Shown one piece after another: positions 13,803 to 26,399 of a stretch of DNA of 64,000 bases. The DNA is from Pempheris klunzingeri. Lineage: Eukaryota; Chordata; Actinopteri; Acropomatiformes; Pempheridae. The DNA is taken from contig NC_092027.1 in the NCBI RefSeq assembly GCF_042242105.1, forward strand, positions 13,944,721 through 14,008,720, read 5' to 3'. Position numbers and translations under genes: made by a program. The notes beneath the pieces were generated by a model, which was not told where the DNA came from, did not search any database, and was given only the letters and a program-made list of their open reading frames with translations. Position 1 is the first letter of the stretch, and every line of letters begins with the position of its first letter.

Positions 13803-14047
13803 TGTTGTGTTTAGTGGCCACTTGAGGGCAGCAGAGGAGTAAGTCAGTGTGATGATGTTCGTCTCTTTCCTCTGGTGTCAAACTCTGCAATGGACAGGAG
13901 ACCAACAGGAAGGTGTATTTACTGTTTTGTCGGCCGCTGTCACAACTGTGTAAAGTTATGTTTTTTAGGCAATGTTGTTTAAAACCTGTTTGCATGTTTC
14001 AAAGAAAAACACAAAGTTCACAATGCAAGAGAGGACACGTTGAAGGC
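13803..14047 (+). repeat. Duplicated block A (copy 1 of 2)
   Basis: About 240 bp, nearly identical to 22130-22362. Shared words include TGGACAGGAGACCAACAGGA and AGGTGTATTTACTGTTT, ending in AAGAGAGGACACGTTGAA-like sequence. Here it lies upstream of the lectin at 14480; in the other copy it abuts a truncated lectin, so the block duplicated together with lectin genes. Confidence 0.85.
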
Positions 14048-14479
14048 TTTGTACTACTGTAATATTGTTGATGTAAATATATGCCCATGTTTAGTATGTT
14101 GTTATTATTTATCTGTTGTAAATGGAAAAAAAATAGTCAACCACAAAGCAATACGTCTCCCCTCGTGTCCCCTCAACCTTCTGACAGCTGAAGCCACATG
14201 TCTTTTCTAAAGCTACATTTTACTATGTCAAAATTTGACTGAACTGAATAAATTATAGGTTTTATGTGACATCTCTGGGTGAGCTTGTGGTCTTTATTGG
14301 CTTATGTTCAGATACTGTGTAGTTGTGTACAACTGAAAGAGTTTGCTAAGTGGATTTGACCAATGATAACACAGTGAAAGCACCCTCTCTGGAACAGAGA
14401 AAAGAAAATCACTTTCCACTGTCTCTGCTAGATTCACATCCAGCAGTGTAGATCATGTACTGGAGTTTTGGACACCAAC

Positions 14480-15016
14480 ATGCTCTTGTTCCTCTTCTTG
14501 TTTGGTCTGGCTCTGGGCGCCGTATCTCCCCCAGATGACTGTGAAGTGAATCTACAGCTCGGCAACTGTGACATGTTCTGGTATGATTTCAACTCTATCC
14601 ACAGTCTGGAGGAACCGAAATTCGTCAAGTCCCTGATCAAGAACTTTGACCCTGCTGAGGGATGGACCCGGATCGGGCTCAGTGACACCCAGAAGGAAAG
14701 AGGATGGATGTGGTCTGATGGGTCTGCTGTCAAATTTGTCTTTTGGGGTGCAGGACAGCCAGACGACAGTGGAAATAATGAAGACTGTGTCCACAGCAAC
14801 TTTGATACAGATTTAAAATGGAACGACCACCAGTGTTCCCAAACATTTACTTTTGTTTGTGCATCTCGCAGAATTTGTCCTTGGCTACAAAAAGGGTTTT
14901 GTCTGATTCAACTCTTGACTTTCCACCTTTTGCTCTATGCATTAAGACTGCATGCTAAAATTACAAAAGTGCAAGTGCACACTCAGAAATCATCTCATTA
15001 TCTTTCATTTTCATGA
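14480..15016 (+). pseudogene. C-type lectin copy with internal deletion and lost stop
   Basis: It starts with the family signal peptide (MLLFLFLFGLALGAVS) and keeps the second half of the C-type lectin domain: WSDGSAVKFVFWGAGQPDD, WNDHQC, FVCASRRICP. Compared with the copy at 25234 it lacks 84 bases in frame, removing 28 residues (GRCFKY...GANLV) that include two conserved cysteines and the first helix. WIGL is changed to RIGL. The family stop TAG after ICP is TGG here, so the frame runs about 46 residues into former 3' UTR before TGA at 15014-15016. The domain cannot fold normally. Transcription is possible, since the upstream region (14280-14479) is homologous to the promoters of the intact copies but lacks their ATAAAAG box. 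Confidence 0.8.
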
Positions 15017-15038: not shown

Positions 15039-15109
<71 letters not shown>

Positions 15110-15121
15110 CACACACACATA
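15036..15121. repeat. AT/AC microsatellite at Tc1 insertion
   Basis: Mixed (AC)n and (AT)n tracts immediately left of the Tc1 element, with another AT tract on its right (16724-16743). The element inserted at a TA within a simple repeat. Confidence 0.85.
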
Positions 15122-16723
15122 CAGGTGCTGGTCATATAATTAGAATATCATGAAAAAGTTGATTTATTTCAGTAATTCCATTCAAAAAGTGAAATTTGTA
15201 TATTATATTCATTCATTACACACAGACTGATATATTTCAAGTGTTTATTTCTTTTAATTTTGATGATTATAACTGACAACTAATGAAAAACCCAAATTCA
15301 GTATCTCAGAAAATTTGAATATTGTGGAAAGGTTCAATATTGAAGACACCTGGTGCCACACTCTAATCAGCTAATTAACTCAAAACACCTGCAAAGGCCT
15401 TTAAATGGTCTCTCAGTCTAGTTCTGTAGGCTACACAATCATGGGGAAGACTGCTGACCTGACAGTTGTCCAAAAGATGACCATTGACACCTTGCACAAG
15501 GAGGGCAAGACACAAAAGGTCATTGCTAAAGAGGCTGGCTGTTCACAGAGCTCTGTGTCCAAGCACATTAATAGAGAGGCGAAGGGAAGGAAAAGATGTG
15601 GTAGAAAAAAGCGTACAAGCAATAGCGATAACCGCAACCTGGAGAGGATTGTGAAACAAAACCCATTCAAAAATGTGGGGGAGATTCACAAAGAGTGGAC
15701 TGCAGCTGGAGTCAGTGCTTCAAGAACCACCACGCACAGACGTATGCAAGACATGGGTTTCAGCTGTCGCATTCCTTGTGTCAAGCCACTCTTGAACAAC
15801 AGACAGCGTCACAAGCGTCTCGCCTGGGTTAAAGACAAAAAGGACTGGACTGCTGCTGAGTGGTCCAAAGTTATGTTCTCTGATGAAAGTAAATTTTGCA
15901 TGTCCTTTGGAAATCAAGGTCCCAGAGTCTGGAGGAAGAGAGGAGAGGCACAGAATCCACGTTGCTTGAAGTCGAGTGTAAAGTTTCCACAGTCAGTGAT
16001 GGTTTGGGGTGCCATGTCATCTGCTGGTGTTGGTCCACTGTGTTTTCTTAGGTCCAAGGTCAACGCAGCCGTCTACCAGGAAGTTTTTGAGCACTTCATG
16101 CTTCCTGCTGCTGACCAACTTTATGGAGATGCAGATTTCATTTTCCAACAGGACTTGGCACCTGCACACAGTGCCAAAGCTACCAGTACCTGGTTTAAGG
16201 ACCAGTTCTTAATTGACTAGCAAACTCGCCTGACCTTAATCCCATAGAAAATCTATGGGGTATTGTGAAGAGGAAAATGCGATACGCCAGACCCAACAAT
16301 GCAGAAGAGCTGAAGGCCACTATCAGAGCAACCTGGGCTCTCATAACACCTGAGCAGTGCCAAAGACTGATCGACTCCATGCCACGCCGCATTGCTGCAG
16401 TAATTCAGGCCAAAGGAGCCCCAACTAAGTATTGAGTGCTGTACATGCTCATACTTTTCATGTTCATACCTTTCAGTTGGCCAACTTTTCTAGAAATCTT
16501 TTTTTTGTATCAGTCTTAAGTAATATTCTAATTTTCTGAGATACTGAATTTGAGTTTTTCATTAGTTGTCAGTTATAATCATCAAAAGTAAAAGAAATAA
16601 ACACTTGAAATATATCAGTCTGTGTGTAATGAATGAATATAATATACAAATTTCACTTTTTGAATGGAATTACTGAAATAAATCAACTTTTTCATGATAT
16701 TCTAATTATATGACCAGCACCTG
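15122..16723 (+). mobile_element. Tc1-like transposon, copy 1
   Basis: A 1602-bp element starting CAGGTGCTGGTCATATAATT and ending in its inverted complement, with terminal inverted repeats of about 205 bp and TA on both sides (15120-15121, 16724-16725). It carries one transposase frame on the + strand, now broken. Length, TA target and long inverted repeats are typical of fish Tc1 elements. It lies downstream of the 14.5-kb lectin copy. Confidence 0.95.
15441..16435 (+). pseudogene. Tc1 transposase, frameshifted
   Basis: The frame opens at ATG 15441 (MGKTADLTVVQKMTIDTL). The helix-turn-helix region (KVIAKEAGCSQSSVSKH) and paired-like domain are followed by the catalytic region with the first Asp (MFSDESKF) and second Asp (FQQDLAPAHSAK). 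Near 16203-16218 a short deletion shifts the frame and a TAG ends it at 16218-16220. The rest, including the DD34E glutamate region and the ending GAPTKY (stop 16433-16435), continues in another frame. The copy cannot make a full transposase. Confidence 0.92.
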
Positions 16724-16743
16724 TATGTATATATATATATATA

Positions 16744-17445
16744 ATTTCAATGGCGTGTCAAAGAAAATATTTCTATCTCTATTCTCTCCCTCTATTTCTA
16801 TTTTTTTTCCTCATTGGCCCACAGAAAATTGTATAGATGTAAAAAAAAGTAATGTAACAGTTGACAATAATATGGGTTCATATATGAATCAAAGATTGTT
16901 GATGATGATCATTTTTATCTCCACAAGTCCAAAATATGTTCACTGTGGTAACTTAGCTAAGTTAACGCAGGATGTGGTTTGTCTTGGACTTACTGAGATA
17001 TCTCTCATTTCACATTGCACAAATGTTTTATTCCATATATGTAGAATATGTAAAGCTGTTATGGACACAATATTGAAAGACATGAAGTAATGGGAAGAGA
17101 ATGATGAAGATGTTTGCGATGAATGTATTCTCGCCTCCTATTCTCCTTTACTGCATGAACAACACACAACAAAACTGATCTCAATAGATCCCTTCTGTGT
17201 ACTAAGTGTAAATTGACAGCTGGATTGTGCATGCTTTGCTTTGGCGAAAAGCAAATGAAAAGCTCAGTGCCAAAATAAAGGGACTTGGTCCAAAGGTTGA
17301 AGGGCTGAAAGCTTCCCGGCATTTCTACTGAACAAATACCAGAGATGGATTTGCCTGTTTCAAATAACCATTGAGGGATAGTGTAGAGTATAATATAATC
17401 TATCTATCTATCGATAATTATAGCTTTAATGTGACATCCCCACGT
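16744..17445. other. Spacer in lectin array
   Basis: No gene seen. The part around 17230-17360 (ACTTGGTCCAAAG, GAAGCTTCC, ATTTCTA...GAACA words) recurs in diverged form near 21120-21290 and 24245-24380, showing it belongs to the duplicated lectin unit. Confidence 0.45.
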
Positions 17446-17609
17446 TTGCCAAGTGCCTTGGACCAATGATAACACACCAACCGTGCAAACACCCTCCCTG
17501 ATGCAGATAAAAGAAAGTGGCCTTTCAACTGTTTCTGCAAGATTCTCAATCTCACCCATCAGTGCAGATCACTTACTCCAAAGACTCTGACAGAGACTCT
17601 GACACCAAC
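17446..17609 (+). promoter_or_regulatory. Lectin promoter and 5' UTR
   Basis: Contains a CCAAT box (17463-17467) and a TATA-like ATAAAAG (17507-17513) about 100 bases before the ATG. The same block, nearly base for base, precedes the other intact lectin (25070-25233). No intron signal lies between the TATA-like box and the start codon. Confidence 0.65.
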
Positions 17610-18095
17610 ATGCTCTTGTTCCTCTTCTTACTTGGTCTGGCTCTGGGCGCCGTGTCTCCTTCAGATGACCGTCAAGTGAGGCTGCTGCGCGGCAACTGTC
17701 CCATGTTTTGGTTCAACTTCAACGGCCGCTGCTTCAAGTACGTCGCCACACGTATGACCTGGGCTGATGCAGAGCTCCACTGTGTGTCAGAGGGAGCCAA
17801 CCTGGTGTCTATCCACAGTCTGGAGGAACAGAAATTCGTCAAAACCCTGATCAAGAACTTTGACCACGCTGAGGGACGGACCTGGGTCGGGCTCAGTGAC
17901 ATCCACAAAGAAGGCAAATGGATGTGGTCTGATGGCTGTGCTGTCAAATTTGTCTTTTGGAGTGCAGGAGAGCCAAACAATCAGGGAGGGGAAAACTGTG
18001 TGGAGAACAACTTTGGCACACATCTGAAGTGGAATGATGTCCGGTGTGCTTCAGTTTTTCCCTCTGTTTGCGCATCTCGTGTAACCTGTCCTTAA
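17610..18095 (+). CDS. Secreted C-type lectin, EPN type (nattectin/ladderlectin-like)
   Basis: A complete single-exon gene of 161 residues: signal peptide (residues 1 to about 16, MLLFLFLLGLALGAVS), then one C-type lectin domain. Conserved cysteines at 30, 41, 58, 130, 146 and 154; WVGLSD at 92-97. The calcium/sugar site is complete: E121-P122-N123, E129 and W141-N142-D143. EPN normally favours mannose-type sugars in this superfamily. Small secreted fish lectins of this kind bind microbial or cell-surface sugars. Start chosen at ATG 17610 because it opens a clear signal peptide; the in-frame extension upstream begins at GTG and would bury it. An extra Cys110 (TCT to TGT-type change; Ser in the paralogs) may affect folding. 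The 3' region has AATAAA near 18175. Type II antifreeze proteins are relatives, but the intact sugar site favours a lectin. Confidence 0.88.
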   Translation: MLLFLFLLGLALGAVSPSDDRQVRLLRGNCPMFWFNFNGRCFKYVATRMTWADAELHCVSEGANLVSIHSLEEQKFVKTLIKNFDHAEGRTWVGLSDIHKEGKWMWSDGCAVKFVFWSAGEPNNQGGENCVENNFGTHLKWNDVRCASVFPSVCASRVTCP

Positions 18096-18593
18096 CAACT
18101 GAGACAGTTGCATATTGTAATTCTGATTAAACCTGGTCGCTGTTGCTCTGTAATGACACGTTAGACCTGCATAATAAAGAAACTAATCAGCACTTTTATG
18201 TTTGTGTACAGAAGTCATTTCATTCAAAGGAAATACTTTAAAAAACTCTATCTCAAAGTTTAGAATTGTTTAGATTTCGAAGAAAAGTAATTAACATTTA
18301 ACATTTACTTGAATTGATATTTAACATACATGCTGTTGTTCTGGTCCACATATCACCAACCAGACTAGTGCACTTTTAACTGCTTTTTTTTTTTAGAGGC
18401 CATCTAAAACATCCCCTCGGAGCCATATACATCTAAGCTGCTGGAAAAACTCCTTGTCTTTTCTGTCTTTGTAGGAATATGTGTAGTTTACTATTTAACT
18501 GGATCCACAAAAAACTACTACCACCATAACACAGTGGTGTCAGAGTTTTCCAGTGAAAAGAAAAGTGTATATATACACACACACACACACACA
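18096..18593. other. Lectin 3' UTR and spacer
   Basis: After the stop comes a family 3' UTR motif (GAGACAGTT...AACCTGGTC...GTTGCTCTG) also seen after the other copies, then AATAAA near 18175. From about 18240 to the Tc1 end I see nothing coding. A CA microsatellite (18575-18596) touches the transposon. Confidence 0.5.
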
Positions 18594-20137
18594 CACGTGC
18601 ATCTCAAAAAAATTAAATATCGTGAAAAAGTTAATTCATTTATATAATTCAATTCAAAAAGGGAAACCCATATACTATATAGATTACACACAAAATGAAA
18701 TATTTCAAGCCTTTATTTGTTTTAATTGTAATGATTGTGGCTTACAACTCATAAAAACCCCAAATTCAGTATCTCAGAAAATTAGAATATTACATAAAGC
18801 CAATTAAAAAAATATATATACAGAAATGTCGCCCTTCTGAAAAGTACGTTCATGTGTGCAATCAATACTTGGTTGGGGTTCCTTTTGCTTGAATTACTGC
18901 ATCAATGCGGCGTGGCATGGAGGCGATCAGTCTGTGGCACTGCTGAGGTGTTGTGGAAGCCCAGGTTGCTTTGATAGTGGCCTTCAGCTCGTCTGCATTG
19001 TTGGGTCTGGTGTCTGCCATCTTCTTCTTGATAATACCCCATAGATTCTCTATGGGGTTCAGGTCAGGGGAGTTTGCTGGCTGATCAAGCACACTAATAC
19101 CATGCTCAATAAACCAGGTTTTGGTAGTTTTGGCAGTGTGGGCAGGTGCCAAGTCCTGCTGGAAAAGAAAATCGGCATCTCCATTAAGCTTGTCAGCTGA
19201 TGGAAGCATGAAGTGCTCTAAAAGTTCCTGGTAGACGGCTGCATTGACTTTGATCTTGATAAAACACAAAGGACCGACACCAGCAGATGACATGGCTCCC
19301 CAAATGATCACTGACTGTGGAAATTTCACACTGGACTTCAAGCAACTTGGATTCTGTGCCTCTCCACTCTTCCTCCAGACTCTGCGACCTTGATTTCCAA
19401 ATGAAATGCAAAATGTACTTTCAGTCCGGCAACAGTCCTGTTCTTTTTCTCCTTGGCCCAGGAGAGACGCCTGTGACATTGTCTCTGGTTCAGGAGTGGC
19501 TTGACTTGAGGAATGCAACATTTGTAGCCCATGTCCAGGACACGTCTGTGTGTGGTGGCTCTTGATGCACTGACTCCAGCCTCAGTCCACTCCTTGTGAA
19601 GCTCCCCTTCTTGAATTCTTGAATCGGCTTTGCTTGACAGTCTTCTCAAGGCTGCGGTCATTCCTGTTGCTCGTGCACCTTTTCCGACCACAATTTTTCC
19701 TTCCACTCAACTTTCTATGAATGTGCTTGGATACCGCACTCTGTGAACAGCCAGCTTCTTAAGCAATTACCTTCTGTGGCTTACCCTCCTTGTGGAGAGT
19801 GTCAATGACTGTGTAGCATACTGAACCAGACTGAGAGGCCTTTTAATGGCTCAGGAAACTTTTGCAGGTGTTTTGAATGAATTACTTGATCAGAGTGTGA
19901 CAGTGTGAGCCTACAATATTGAACTTTTTCACAATATTCTAATTTTCTGAGATACTGAATTTGGGGTTTTTATGAGTTGTAAGCCACAATCATCACAATT
20001 AAAACAAATAAAGGCTTGAAATATTTCATTTTGTGTGTAATGAATCTATATAGTGTATGAGTTTCACTTTTTGAATTGAATTACAGAAATACAGAATTAA
20101 CTTTTTCATGATATTCTAATTTTTTGAGATGCACCTG
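18594..20137 (-). mobile_element. Tc1-like transposon, copy 2
   Basis: A 1544-bp element of a second Tc1 family. The right end reads GAGATGCACCTG followed by TA, and the left end begins CACGTGCATCTC (CAGGTG expected). Inverted repeats are about 205 bp. The transposase region runs on the - strand, opposite to copy 1. The left TA duplication is no longer visible, having merged with or mutated into a CA repeat. Confidence 0.92.
18862..19830 (-). pseudogene. Tc1 transposase, frame-broken, catalytic region deleted
   Basis: The - strand reading ends IQAKGTPTKY with TGA at 18862-18864. The C-terminal part keeps the second Asp (FQQDLAPAHTAK) and the Glu region (SPDLNPIENLWG). The N-terminal part (GELHKEWTEAGVSASRATTH, LSWAKEKKN) is in a different frame. 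Around 19415-19440 the segment that normally holds FSDES with the first catalytic Asp is missing. The 5' third (19710-19830) contains stops. It is dead and older looking than copy 1. Confidence 0.9.
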
Positions 20138-20252
20138 TATATTAAAAAAAAGATGTTCATGGGTTGAAGCTGCAATGCTGGAAAGTAAACATACTTGTTT
20201 TTTTTATTTTGTGAACCATAAAGTGAAGCTACTGTGTGCCAGCTGTTCCAGT

Positions 20253-20600
20253 CATGAGTGCATCGCCACACGTATGACCTGGGCTGGTGCAGAGCTCCAC
20301 TGTGTGTCAGAGGGAGCCAACCTGGTGTCTAACCACAGTCTGGAGGAACACGAATTTGTCAGATCACTGATGGTATGTAGGACATGGATGTATGTAGGAG
20401 GCTGGAGGACATGAACATTGTGTGAACAAGTATGAAGCACTTAAATGGACTGACAACCAATGATCTTCAGTCCATCTCACATAAGCTGTCCTCAGTAACT
20501 GAGACAGTTACATACATCTGATTCAACCTGGTCACATGTTGCTCTGTTGAAATGCTTTATGTCTCGACAATAGCGGCATAAATGTACACTCTTATGCTTG
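20253..20600 (+). pseudogene. C-type lectin fragment
   Basis: Only the middle of the domain remains: CIATRMTWAGAELHCVSEG, then NLVSNHSLEEHEFVRSLM. It opens without signal peptide or start and breaks off near 20373. The sugar-binding half is gone; the sequence resumes around 20490 in the family 3' UTR (CTGAGACAGTTACATAC, TTCAACCTGGTCAC). It is a remnant of a tandem copy. Confidence 0.85.
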
Positions 20601-22112
20601 TCATTTCACTAACCTTCATTTTCATGGCTATTGGGTATTCTCACTGTTAACTCCACTGGCCGATCAAAGGGAATATTACAAAGGAAATATAATATACGTA
20701 TGTTACTTTTAATAATCTCAAAACAAAAGATATAGCAGAAAGTGGCAATGATTGGGGTCCAAGCAGTTTGGGAGCATTGGGATGTTTGTTTCTTATTTAA
20801 TTGTAAAGAAGCAAAACTCCAAGACCAAGACCAAAGAAAGATACACATGCAGGTTAATCTTTTTTTTGTTTTGCTTTTGGATATCTTCTCCAGCTCCAAT
20901 ACAATATAGGATATTGCTTTGACAACACATGAGCACAACTGATCCCAGTTTATCCCTTTTGTGTAAATAGACAGGACTTACTTGGTCCAAATATTTTTAA
21001 GACCTCAGCCACCTAAAAGGGCACCTTGGACTCAAATGTAAGCTTTGAGCTTTGAGAAAATGTTTAGACTAGGTGGATCCAGGAAAAACCTACTACTGTA
21101 ACAAGAGTTTTTAGTTTTTCCAATGAAAAGCTCAGTGCCAAAGTAAAGGGAACTGACAGCATCTTTATTTAGCCTCTGATGAATCCCTTGTGCTGTGATG
21201 GAAGTGACTCGGACCAAAGGATGAAGGGCACATTGGACTGGAAGCTTCCTGGAATTTCTATGGAACACATATTCAGCAGGGATCGTGTGTAAACTTTATT
21301 TGTTTTGTTCCCCTATATCTTAGGCTGGTTTTGTTTGACTGTGATAACACTGATAAGAATTGACCTTATGAAAATATCATTACATAGAAAAACAAACACT
21401 TAATCAAACACTCTCCTGAATGTTCAACAACTGTTGATGAAGAGGGAACATTTATTGCTTGTCTTTATTGCCATGTCCTTGTTCCAAGTCCTGGTTAATT
21501 TTTATCTGAACATCCGTTGTAATTATTTTCCCGAAAGACATTATTATTATAAGATATTATTTCCTTTAAAGATAGACTCTGATCCCTTGTTCCCACCCAC
21601 ACGCCCCTGAATGGAAATGCAGCCAGCTTTGTGGACACTGATTCTCCAACTAATTCAAATCAAAAGCATATTTAAGTACTTCATATTATGTGGATGTAAA
21701 TTCTAAAGACCTGAAAAAGTCTGTTTATTGTACAGAAGGTATTGCTTAAGGTTGTACATAATATTCCTGCTTTTCAGGAGTTATTTATGTCCACAAACAT
21801 GACATAAAACATCCAATATGATAGTGGAAGGGACTCGATCAAGAGGAACACACACATTGTTAGCCTCCTGTCTGATAAACCTGTACGTTCAAATAAGAGG
21901 AACTTGAGCTGAATGAGTTTTTATTCTTCTATTTTTCGAAGAGAAAACTTGCTAGGAGTACAAGTTTTCACCAACATTAGCTAACGTGAGCTACTGGTAA
22001 TACGGGACAAAGTCAGGCTGTAGTAGCAAAGAGACAACATTGTGTTATTCATTTTCTTATGGAACAGTTTTGCTTTAAAGATGCAGCTTGTTGTGTTCAA
22101 AGAGCACAAGAG
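20601..22112. other. Lectin-unit spacer (duplicated)
   Basis: No gene seen. About 21300-21600 matches 23140-23450 in diverged form (GTTTGACTGTGA, AAATATCATTA, GTTGATGAA-type words), and 21650-21830 matches 24420-24560 (AAGTACTTCAT, GGATGTAAATT, TGCTTTTCAGGAGT). These are spacer parts of the tandem lectin unit. Confidence 0.55.
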
Positions 22113-22156
22113 CTCCTCTGCTGTCCTCAAGTGGCCACTTGAGGACAGCAGAGGAG
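22113..22156. repeat. Perfect 44-bp palindrome
   Basis: Two 22-base arms meet with no loop (centre between 22134 and 22135, GTGG|CCAC). Only the right arm exists at the paralogous site near 13814, so the left arm is an inverted copy made at this block's junction. Confidence 0.95.
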
Positions 22157-22362
22157 TAAGTCAGTGTGATGACGTTCATCTCTGTGCTCTGGTGTCAAAC
22201 TCTGTAATGGACAGGAGACCAACAGGAAGGTGTATTTACTGTTTAATCAGCCGCTGTCATGATTGTAAAATTACATCATGACAACAATGTTGTTTGAAAC
22301 CTTTTTGCATGTTCAAACAAAAAAACACAAAGTTCACAATACAAGAGAGGACACGTTGAACG
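22130..22362 (+). repeat. Duplicated block A (copy 2 of 2)
   Basis: Nearly identical to 13803-14047. Its right end (...GGACACGTTGAACG) joins directly to a truncated lectin at 22363. Confidence 0.85.
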
Positions 22363-22631
22363 TCTGGAGGAACACAATTCTGTCAAATCCCTGATTAAGA
22401 ACTAAGAGAGGCACCTGGATCGGACTCAGTGACGTCCACAAGGAAGGAGGATGGACATGGTCTGATGGTTGCGCTGTCAAATTTGTCTTTTGGAGCTTGG
22501 GTCAACCAGATAACGCTGGAGAAAATGAACACTGTGTGATCAAAATCTATGGCACACATCTGAAATGGAACGACGTCCCATGTTCTTTAATTCCTCCCTC
22601 TGTTTGTGCGTCTCATATAGCCTGTCCTTAA
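22363..22631 (+). pseudogene. C-type lectin pseudogene (C-terminal half)
   Basis: It begins inside the domain at LEEHNSVKSLIKN and hits TAA (about 22402). The remaining frame reads GTWIGLSDVHKEGGWTWSDG, then VKFVFWSLGQPDNAGENEHC, LKWNDVPC and SVCASHIACP, with the family stop TAA near 22629. There is no signal peptide or first half, and a QPD sugar motif. A family 3' UTR with AATAAA near 22718 follows. Confidence 0.87.
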
Positions 22632-25069
22632 CAAATGAGATAGTTACATATTGTAAGTGTGATTCAACCTGGTCACTGTTCACTTGTTGCTCCGTTGGCA
22701 TGCATTTGTCCTCCACAATAAAGATATAAATAAAAACTTTTCTGTTTCTGTACTGACATCATTTCACTAACGTATATTTTCATTAATAAATTCATGCATT
22801 AACTTAACTTATTAACTTTATTAACTTATTTGGTGTGTGTGTGTATGTGTGTGTGTGTGTCGATATAGCCCTTCTTGGACCTTTTGAGATATGTATGATT
22901 AATTTCCCAATGAACAAAAGTTACATTTAATATTTTTAGCATTGCAAGAGAGCTGTAATGGGCATAATATTGAAATGCATGAAGTAATAGGAAGAGAACC
23001 TTCACAATGTTGCTGCGATCAAGATGTTTGGGAAGAATGCATTTGGACATTCCTGGCTTCCTGGTATTTCTATGGAACAGACATCATTCGACTGACCTGC
23101 ATCATAGTTTTAGTGAGGAATTGTGCATAAATCTTCCTGTTGTTCCCCTCTCTGTTATAGCTCAGCCCTGTTGTGTTTGACTGTGAAAATGTTGATTTTT
23201 ATTAATATGATCCAACAAAAATATCATTATGTAGAAAAATAAATACTACAGTTTTCCTGAACGTGCAAGAGTTCAACAACAGTTGATGAACAAGGAACAT
23301 CTATTGTTTGTCTTTATAATTATTTCCTTGTTTTCATTTTAGAATCATAGATAATTTTTTAATCAACAATTCCTTATCATTTTTCCCTGTATTATTTCCT
23401 CTAAAGGCAGACTCTGATCCCTTGTTGCCACCAGCTCGTCCCTGATTGGAAAATGTATTGCTTCTCTTTTACTTCCTTGTTTTAATTTGGTTAATTTTTA
23501 TCTCAACACTCCTACATGTTTCTCATTGGATTATGATATTTGTATTTCAATAGATAATAATCATTTTACATTGCTCTGTAAATAATATTGACCTTAACCT
23601 TTTTCAGTGACAAATGTCACATTGAGTCCTGCAGCATACGTTCTGTAGAACTCTTGCTTTGCTTAGAAGTCAGTGTCTTTTTTCACCACAGAGTTTGATT
23701 TCCTTGAATGAGTCCTGGCATGACTTCTGTCCTGTTTTCACGAAAAAGCAGATTTAACTCAGAGCAGAGATGCTTTTTGACATCATGATAACAAATTTCA
23801 TTCAACACACAAACAGTCATCAAGCACAAGGTGTCCTAATCTCATTTGATGCTGAGAAGACATGAAATAGATTGGACTTACTTAGTTAACGTCATGGAAA
23901 TGTTTGGTTTTGGGGACTTATATACTATTAGCCCTGCGGCTAGTGCACTGGTTAATGGCATAATGGCATATACAAACGCTTTCTCGTGTAATCTCTGTAC
24001 TTGGGGTCTCAGCAGTCTTCCCATTAATGCTATGATTGGCAACCTCAAGTCACACTGGTATGTTCTGTTCATATCATCTGTTATATTTTCTCCTGTGAGA
24101 ATTAAGCAGCTTACAGCGGCATATTGTACATTAAATGGTCATATTATCTGGCATAATCTATTATGTTCAATCCATCAGATCAGTGAGACAAACATACATG
24201 TTGATTAAGCCTGTGATTGACATTTTATGTCAAAAAAATTCCCACTGATGAATCACTTGTCCATCGATCTAAGTAACTTGGTCCAAACGGGAAAGAACAC
24301 ATTGGACTGAAAGGGTTCCTGGAACAGATATCAGAAGTAGATATGCCTGCATCATATAGTCATTTAGGGATTGTAAGTGAGCTTTCATTGATTGTCTTTT
24401 ACTTCCCTGTTTTCCTTTTAGTGCTTAAGTACTTCATGTCACATGGATGTAAATTGTAAAGAAGTGTCACTAAGCTAAGCTAATCGTTTTATTCTTGAGA
24501 TTCTTGCTTTTCAGGAGTCATTTATATCTACGAATATTACACAAAACCATTTAAGATCAATTATCAATAATGAGAAAAGATTGACATTGACTGAAACTAC
24601 ATACACATCTTTTGCTGAACAGCAGCCACTGTGGATACTAGAGACAGTTACAGGAAAGTACTTGATGCCAAACTGCTTTTTAGATAAATAGTAATTTAGC
24701 AATTAGCTAAAAAGACAAGCTTCTGTAACAATAGCACAAGTGGAGAAGAGTCAGCAACTGACTCTCCATGATACAGCTATATTTACCTGAAGTTTGCTAA
24801 CATTATCTAACGTCAGCCACCATGAGCTGATTATCACACCAGACCGAGTCAGGCTGTAATAGTGTGTTAAATTGAGCAACAATATGTTTTATTGCATCAT
24901 AGTTCAACTTTTCATTTGTAAGAGGAACATGGTCGCATTCCTTGTCTTCAAACTGACCCATTTTAAAGCTGATCAATCAATAAATTATAGCTTTTACATC
25001 TCAGGGTGAGCCAGTGGGCTTTTTTTGGCTTATGTTCAGATATGGTGTGGTTGTGTGACACGAAAGTGT
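22632..25069. other. Lectin-unit spacer
   Basis: No supported gene. It contains a GT microsatellite (22832-22860) and blocks shared with 12030-12380 (at 23460-23790), 21300-21600 (at 23140-23450), 17230-17360 (at 24245-24380) and 21650-21830 (at 24420-24560). The 120-codon frame at 23846-24208 shows no domain and is not supported. Confidence 0.5.
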
Positions 25070-25233
25070 TTGCCAAGTGCCTTGGACCAATGATAACACA
25101 CCAACCGTGCAAACACCCTCCCTGATGCAGATAAAAGAAAGTGGCCTTTCAACTGTTTCCGCAAGATTCTCAATCTCACCCATCAGTGCAGATCACTTAC
25201 TCCAAAGACTCTGACAGAGACTCTGACACCAAC
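25070..25233 (+). promoter_or_regulatory. Lectin promoter and 5' UTR
   Basis: CCAAT at 25087-25091 and ATAAAAG at 25131-25137. Nearly identical over about 164 bases to 17446-17609, which implies a recent duplication or gene conversion. Confidence 0.65.
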
Positions 25234-25722
25234 ATGCTCTTGTTCCTCTTCTTACTTGGTCTGGCTCTGGGCGCCGTGTCTCCTTCAGATGACCATCAAC
25301 TGAAGCTGCTGCGTGGCAACTGTCCCATGTTTTGGTACAATTTCAACGGCCGCTGCTTCAAGTACGTCGCCACACGTATGACCTGGGCTGATGCAGAGCT
25401 CCACTGTGTGTCAGAGGGAGCCAACCTGGTGTCTATCCACAGTCTGGAGGAACAGAAATTCGTCAAATCCCTGATCAAGAACTTTGACCCTGCTGAGGGA
25501 TGGACCTGGATCGGGCTCAGTGACACCCAGAAGGAAAGAGGATGGATGTGGTCTGATGGGTCTGCTGTCAAGTTTGTCTTTTGGAGCGCAGGACAGCCAG
25601 ACAACAGTGGAAATAATGAAGACTGTGTCCACAGCAACTTTGGCACAGATGTCAAATGGAACGACCACCAGTGTTCCCAAACATTTACTTTTGTTTGTGC
25701 ATCTCGCAGAATTTGTCCTTAG
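25234..25722 (+). CDS. Secreted C-type lectin, QPD type (nattectin/ladderlectin-like)
   Basis: A complete single-exon gene of 162 residues: signal peptide (1 to about 16) and one C-type lectin domain. Cysteines at 30, 41, 58, 131, 147 and 155; WIGLSD at 92-97. Sugar/calcium motif Q121-P122-D123 with E129 and W142-N143-D144. QPD is the galactose-type signature in this superfamily, so its ligand probably differs from that of the EPN paralog at 17610. The first half is almost identical to that paralog; the second half is almost identical to the broken copy at 14480, making this gene a mosaic. Stop TAG at 25720-25722. The start is the ATG that opens the signal peptide. Confidence 0.88.
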   Translation: MLLFLFLLGLALGAVSPSDDHQLKLLRGNCPMFWYNFNGRCFKYVATRMTWADAELHCVSEGANLVSIHSLEEQKFVKSLIKNFDPAEGWTWIGLSDTQKERGWMWSDGSAVKFVFWSAGQPDNSGNNEDCVHSNFGTDVKWNDHQCSQTFTFVCASRRICP

Positions 25723-25861
25723 CTACAAAAAGGGTTTTGTCTGTACCTGTTGTTCTATGCATTAAGACTGCATGCTAAAACTACTACTAAACCTTGGACT
25801 CGCATAAATTGAAGCTGCTGGAAAAACTTTTCTTTCTTTGTAAGAAAATGTGAAGTCTACT

Positions 25862-25879
25862 GTATCTATCTATCTATCC

Positions 25880-25956
<77 letters not shown>
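25862..25956. repeat. (ATCT)n microsatellite
   Basis: About 23 tetranucleotide units with one CCAT interruption near 25877, just downstream of the intact QPD lectin. Confidence 0.97.
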
Positions 25957-26029
25957 GTAACCATGCAGACGACCCTCTCCAAAGCATATTAAAGAAAGCA
26001 CTCTTTAACCATTTACATACACATAATAT

Positions 26030-26330
26030 CTTCAAAGCCCTGAACTTTGACCTCAAAGCAGGCAGATGGGTGTAGCCTGATGGTTGTGCCATTGACTCTT
26101 TTGGTATGCAGGAGAGCTAAACAATGTGGGAGGATACGAACACTGTGGACACACACATCATGGCAGTGTTTTGAGATGTAATGACACCAAGTGCTCTGAT
26201 ACTCTTCCCTCTGTCAGCGAATCTCACATAACCTGTCTTTAACAAGTGAGATAGTCACATATGTCTGATTCAACCTGGTCACTGTTCACCTGCTGCTCTG
26301 TTGACATTCATCAGGCCTCCACAATAAACA
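26030..26330 (+). pseudogene. Degraded C-type lectin relic
   Basis: Scattered family words remain: a WMWSDG-like segment with an in-frame TAG (around 26070), GGTATGCAGGAGAGCTAAACA corresponding to AGEPN with a stop, CCCTCTGTCAGCGAATCTCA for PSVCASH, then a clear family 3' UTR (GAGATAGTCACATA, TTCAACCTGGTCACTGTTCA) with AATAAA near 26322. It is the oldest-looking copy in the array. Confidence 0.78.
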
Positions 26331-26399
26331 TACACAATATGTAAAAATGTACACTTTATATGTCCAGGGGTTGATCAAAGGGAATACTTTCACATTTTA

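Follow-up and report, generated by a model that had tools for sequence, protein, structure and literature searches.

Gene conversion within a pair of sugar-binding paralogs has been described for SIGLEC11 and SIGLEC16(P) in primates (PMC5701461). There, the tract covers the upstream region together with the exon that encodes the sugar-binding domain. The donor in humans was a non-functional copy, and the converted gene may have altered expression (PMC5701461). Conversion of a lectin ligand-binding region is already known from this pair, and the case presented here is of the same kind in a different lectin superfamily. The SIGLECs are Ig-type lectins with introns, comprise one pair, were compared across several primates and had their glycan binding tested (PMC5701461), whereas the fish array considered below consists of intronless C-type lectins, involves two partners, is drawn from one genome and has a direction of transfer that could run either way.

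Secreted single-domain C-type lectins are also represented by the AFP-like or group VII-like soluble lectins of fish (PMC514892). Their description reports two near-identical AFP-like loci in tandem in Fugu and places the introns of the AFP-like C-type lectin domain (CTLD) upstream of C1, downstream of WIGL, and between C2 and C3 (PMC514892). The AFP-like genes of Fugu and sea raven carry introns inside the domain, according to this source (PMC514892), in contrast to copies B and C of the present array, whose coding sequences have none. A further likeness is found in the hybrid KIR and Ly49 genes, which reflect recombination in the immune receptor clusters of NK cells; KIR and Ly49 are multi-exon receptors, with largely unequal crossing-over and with population data. 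In partial coverage of the literature on conversion, intronless or single-exon genes and tandem duplication in C-type lectins, neither a swap of this kind in fish nor this array was encountered in titles and abstract openings.

Six lectin units in tandem

The window, which is the whole 64,000-nucleotide stretch analysed here (C16:13944721-14008720), derives from the 646-Mb genome of Pempheris klunzingeri, assembled in 439 contigs; its type of lectin and its Tc1-like transposons are in keeping with a bony fish. Between 14.2 and 26.4 kb of the window reside six C-type lectin units, all on the + strand, in the order A, B, D, E, C, F. Just two of them, B and C, are intact; either one comprises a single open frame with a coding sequence that lacks introns, and this organization may point to a retrogene founder. 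In four other lectins of the genome that were inspected, most or all of the domain is contained in one open frame and no start codon was found near the domain, which suggests apparent upstream exons. A separate CTLD cluster on C11 includes two loci approximately 236 kb apart (L006, C11:26114471, and L007, C11:25878217), whose open frames differ by one residue and which display an apparent splice acceptor ahead of the domain.

Copy C (25234 to 25722, + strand) encodes 162 aa and contains a single CTLD with QPD and WND motifs and seven cysteines, preceded by a hydrophobic N-terminus that was judged by eye to be a putative signal peptide. C is therefore predicted to be a secreted single-CTLD protein. 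The Pfam Lectin_C model (PF00059) matches C at 2e-24 (86.8 bits, against a cut-off of 22.6), and 2py2, a type II antifreeze protein from herring, is the highest-ranking single-domain chain (E 1.4e-28) among the best 60 of 254 matches to solved structures. A structure prediction for C from a two-sequence alignment reached a mean pLDDT of 35.6 and is not usable. Approximately 100 bp ahead of the ATG is a TATA-like segment, GATAAAAG (25130 to 25137, + strand), a putative promoter element that is identical in B and reads GAGAAAAG at the same position in A.

The second intact unit, copy B, spans 17444 to 18095 (+ strand) with its 5′ region; its coding sequence (17610-18095) encodes 161 aa with EPN and WND motifs and matches Lectin_C at 8e-22 (78.4 bits, same cut-off of 22.6). 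Copy A (14247 to 15016, + strand; ATG at 14480) carries QPD and is broken. It displays an 84-bp in-frame deletion after 14593, through which 28 aa of the domain are gone, and TGG at the stop codon position, so that the frame extends to 15016; the Lectin_C match is nonetheless retained at 8e-14 (52.7 bits, above the 22.6 cut-off). Exon skipping was considered, by reasoning only, as the origin of this deletion. The right edge of the deletion fits none of the three AFP-like intron positions (PMC514892), and upstream non-coding DNA is common to A and C, which led to the dismissal of a retrocopy made from a skipped transcript.

The three remaining units are incomplete. Copy D is a fragment (20225 to 20625, + strand) in which 115 bp are 92% identical to C and 91% to B, and an 80-bp 3′ part is 77.5% identical to B. 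That a broken copy should be 92% like C over these 115 bp (20257-20371 of the window) suggests another possible conversion patch. Copy E (22362 to 22790, + strand) consists of a second half only, with QPD, and groups with B and F, apart from A and C, in an unrooted tree. The DNA immediately 5′ of E (22130-22360) is 87% identical to 13813-14044, upstream of A; a deletion may have fused the two parts of this locus, or E may be one more patch. Copy F (26043 to 26340, + strand) is a decayed second-half remnant downstream of C. It was considered as the displaced original 3′ half of C; F is approximately 71% identical to B and the 5′ half of C is 98% identical to B, so the ages are incompatible and this reading was dropped. 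Two Tc1/mariner-like elements lie between lectin units, 77% alike and in opposite orientation: one at 15096-16743 of the window, with inverted terminal repeats (15102-15323 and 16522-16743, 96%) and an HTH_Tnp_Tc3_2 match, and the other at 18589-20140, with a DDE_3 match.

Against the whole genome, the C protein yielded at least 79 matches at E values up to 0.001, with 150 of 215 candidates scored; among the matches listed, all close relatives of C are in the window, followed at 41% identity by a lectin on C8. DNA searches with the whole gene and with its first half gave no match outside the window, in an assembly that may be incomplete and by a method that skips very common words. These same searches revealed no further full copy that could provide an outgroup for the first half of the gene, and the C8 lectin, at 41% protein identity, was judged too distant to serve as its root.

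Change of partner within copy C

Aligned base by base with A and B, copy C changes its closest relative partway through the coding sequence. The initial annotation had described approximately 25070-25470 as nearly identical to 17446-17850, and the alignment bears this out: the B-like tract (25068 to 25490, + strand), which spans the promoter region, 5′ UTR, signal peptide and N-half of the domain, matches B 17444-17866 at 414 of 423 positions. From about 25475 onward C had been likened to the broken copy at 14640-14900, including the start of the 3′ UTR, and here too the likeness holds. The A-like tract (25491 to 25784, + strand), which spans the second half with QPD and WND, the stop codon and the first 62 bp of the 3′ UTR, matches A at 280 of 294 positions, the partner stretch in A being 14594-14964; approximately 18 bp of 3′ UTR are present in A and absent from C. 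The baseline between A and B themselves is far lower, at 260/312 in the B-like stretch (~17% different) and 196/283 in the A-like stretch (~31%).

Pairwise identity accordingly shifts along the gene. C matches B at 165/166 positions in the promoter and 5′ UTR (25068-25233), 108/114 in the first 38 codons, 84/84 at 25348-25431 and 57/59 at 25432-25490, and then at 175/229 at 25491-25722. The corresponding values against A are 109/139 in the promoter and 5′ UTR and 95/114 in the first 38 codons; 25348-25431 is deleted in A, and identity then stands at 57/59 at 25432-25490, 222/232 at 25491-25722 and 58/62 into the 3′ UTR, to 25784.

At 109 sites C agrees with one partner only, 53 times with B and 56 times with A, in an order that runs from mostly B to mostly A. 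Across 25068-25347, 45 of 48 such sites side with B and 3 with A; across 25491-25725, 6 of 57 side with B and 51 with A (Fisher 2e-19). None of 200,000 permutations was as extreme as the observed maximum descent of 47, and none of 20,000 reached the MaxChi value of 76. A two-partition model (lnL -358.8) gains 50.6 over a single partition (-409.4), with its best break at 25467/25468 and a 2-lnL interval of 25465 to 25490 (+ strand), in keeping with the suggestion that the breakpoint falls just before the sugar-binding loop. Because A lacks 25348-25431 and 25432-25490 is nearly the same in all three copies, the switch is more safely placed within 25341-25490. Mosaic similarity with one main switch is thus present in C.

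The switch is not entirely clean, given the 3 A-siding sites before it and the 6 B-siding sites after it. The history is nevertheless more complex than one break, as indicated by clustered B-C differences and by a three-part model in which the middle part (25341-25599) diverges little and which improves on the two-part model by 13.7 lnL. Six of the nine B-C differences fall within 47 bp (25295-25341; scan p 0.004, at a width set after seeing the data). They comprise two silent changes and four replacements, three of which precede the first Cys while the fourth follows it; selection or a separate small patch are possible readings of the cluster.

The tree of the second half was built from A, B, C, E and F. 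A and C form a clade in 100% of 200 bootstraps, and trees that instead join B with C or A with B are 67.6 lnL worse (AU below 1e-40). Among 285 second-half columns, with E as the reference, 172 are constant and 36 unite A and C against B and E; in 23 only B differs, in 7 only A, in 2 only C and in 30 only E, one column unites A and B against C and E, 11 unite A and C with E different again, and 3 are three-state. The 36 columns are likely to represent changes shared and derived in A and C. The first half is available in A, B and C only, since the D sequence there amounts to 115 bp, mostly where A is deleted. With three sequences distances alone can be compared, so that of the separate trees envisaged for the two halves one was obtained, for the second, and the first was assessed through distances.

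Two explanations that dispense with exchange between loci bear on this pattern. Uneven selection along the gene could in principle create such likeness, and the middle stretch (25432-25490) is indeed similar in all three copies (A-B 55/59). Constraint, however, cannot explain why C sides with B in 5′ non-coding DNA and with A in the 3′ UTR, and silent B-C divergence jumps from a dS of 0.03-0.08 before the switch to 0.50 after it. The reciprocal switch of partner refutes this reading, which retains next to no probability. Tandem repeats are also prone to assembly chimeras, and C might have been joined from reads of A and B. Yet C differs from both at scattered sites, and is therefore more than a join of their sequences; it has substitutions of its own (9/423 and 14/294 relative to its partners), a length difference and its own flanks, which makes an artefact highly improbable. 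Exon shuffling at the breakpoint was examined as well, given that an exon appears to end near the same place in some intron-bearing CTLD genes of this genome (four loci by eye, one doubtful); the array is intronless, and the correspondence was left as a coincidence.

Flanking sequences and direction of transfer

The initial annotation had proposed gene conversion or unequal crossing-over. A recombinant history of three tandem paralogs is upheld by the above, and the flanks distinguish between the two processes. Upstream of the B-like tract, the flank of C (24979 to 25067, + strand) is approximately 80% identical to A 14247-14346, the baseline paralog level (80% in an alignment of C 24979-25073), and B, by eye, is missing approximately 65 bp relative to this flank. 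Downstream (25785 to 25861, + strand), the likeness to A has ended, with 31/71 matches after 25784; instead, following a register jump, C 25792-25861 is 73% identical to the distal flank of B (18415-18492). The downstream flank of A aligns loosely, by eye, with those of B and E. Outside the tracts, C is approximately 73-83% like its partners, and near-identity is bounded by baseline divergence at both sides, the upstream end of the B-like tract being visible only through the gap in B.

High identity that is bounded at both ends favours gene conversion over simple unequal crossing-over, and with baseline flanks on both sides of the 717-bp body, C does not resemble a segment recently duplicated from either A or B. 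The duplication product of unequal crossing-over between B-like and A-like units would join a 5′ B part to a 3′ A part, as in C, but such a hybrid unit would bring its flanks with it, B-like upstream and A-like downstream at 95-98%, whereas those of C are at baseline. C also lies outside the A-B interval, so that crossing-over would need later replacement of the flanks, and it is accordingly quite improbable as the origin of C. Overall, this is a genuine recombination mosaic, which gene conversion in a tandem array very probably produced. At three of the tract ends the copies also differ in length (84 bp gone in A, ~65 bp gone upstream in B, and the register jump downstream in C), and the true ends are therefore partly hidden. 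Ends at such heterologies would fit conversion that stops where pairing fails, in either direction.

We favour, with a probability of about 0.6, the reading in which the body of C was overwritten by conversion from B-like and A-like copies, with C as the recipient. Approximately 420 bp, from the 5′ region to the N-half, would have been copied into C from B or a B-like copy, and approximately 300-350 bp, comprising the sugar-binding half and the beginning of the 3′ UTR, from A or a copy resembling it. The two transfers may have happened separately, or a single repair may have switched template within the near-identical stretch at 25432-25490. C would then be an apparently functional gene for a secreted C-type lectin, seated at an old locus in the six-unit array.

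The identities themselves fit C as recipient of both tracts, as donor of both, or a mixture of the two; a recipient C is plausible. As a donor, C would have overwritten the 5′ half of B in one event and the 3′ half of A in another, making A and B the mosaics. The same identities are then expected; the B tract starts at the gap in B and the A tract at the 84-bp deletion, which resembles imperfect patching, and with no outgroup for the first half a donation by C to both copies would likewise appear as two tracts. This arrangement, however, requires two independent events from one donor, and it is in C that the register jumps where the A/C tract ends on its 3′ side, whereas the downstream flank of A can still be aligned, loosely and by eye, with those of B and E. 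Neither counterpoint is strong, and a donor C is best regarded as possible but on the unlikely side.

The substitutions bear on the timing of the exchanges. Changes found in C only are similarly frequent in the two halves (4/253 in the first and 2-4/229 in the second, p 0.69-1.0), which is compatible with one time of origin. Divergence is lower between B and C (9/423) than between A and C (14/294; p 0.055, and p 0.02 for promoter against 3′ UTR), a hint that the two exchanges differ in age or that A has evolved faster. A and C differ at 12 coding positions within 25432-25722. Relative to B, A accounts for five amino-acid changes (six sites), the lost stop and one silent change, and C for two silent changes; the last two sites belong to codon 140, where all three copies differ and the residue is changed only in C. 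If the shared half had one ancestor, the damage to A there, including the lost stop, would be later than the sharing and C would look constrained, although few sites are involved. The shared tract includes neither the 84-bp deletion nor the altered TATA-like box of A, so it offers no means of dating them.

Ligand preference and expression

The distal half of the domain in C, with QPD, WND and the final cysteines, lies within the A-like tract, such that the disulphides of the domain, as expected from the CTLD fold, would join B-type and A-type halves. B has EPN and WND at the corresponding positions. EPN is usually associated with a preference for mannose and QPD with one for galactose (PMC7080814); another source gives the preference in reverse (PMC5646163). 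Judged from the motifs, a change in ligand preference from mannose-type (EPN) to galactose-type (QPD) is plausible. Between B and C, dN/dS over the second half of the domain is 0.45, which does not indicate overall positive selection there.

A swap of the specificity module behind a shared promoter had been put forward for this gene. The sharing of the 5′ region, TATA-like box included, is borne out by its near-identity in B and C, from which similar expression is predicted and the expression of C would follow that of B; the swap itself takes the form of QPD against EPN and depends on the motif rule. At the other end of the gene, B, E and F have AATAAA near the stop codon. No AATAAA occurs within 25715-26100 downstream of C, where CATAAA at 25803 and ATTAAA at 25988 are found instead, and the A-type 3′ end may have deprived C of the usual poly(A) signal.

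Conceivably, the array operates as a cassette system, in which intronless units, some of them broken, store alternative sugar-binding halves. Conversion would place one such half after another behind a single active promoter, and galactose-type and mannose-type forms would vary among individuals or species. D, in its 115-bp and 80-bp parts, and the middle stretch common to A, B and C likewise have a patchy look; the idea is nonetheless improbable. At present, the locus is a clear example of ordinary exchange in a tandem array. It is also a compact and testable instance from nature where the ligand module of one lectin may, through conversion, have come under the control region of a second; if this were confirmed across species, it would show how innate lectin clusters of fish can change specificity with expression unchanged.
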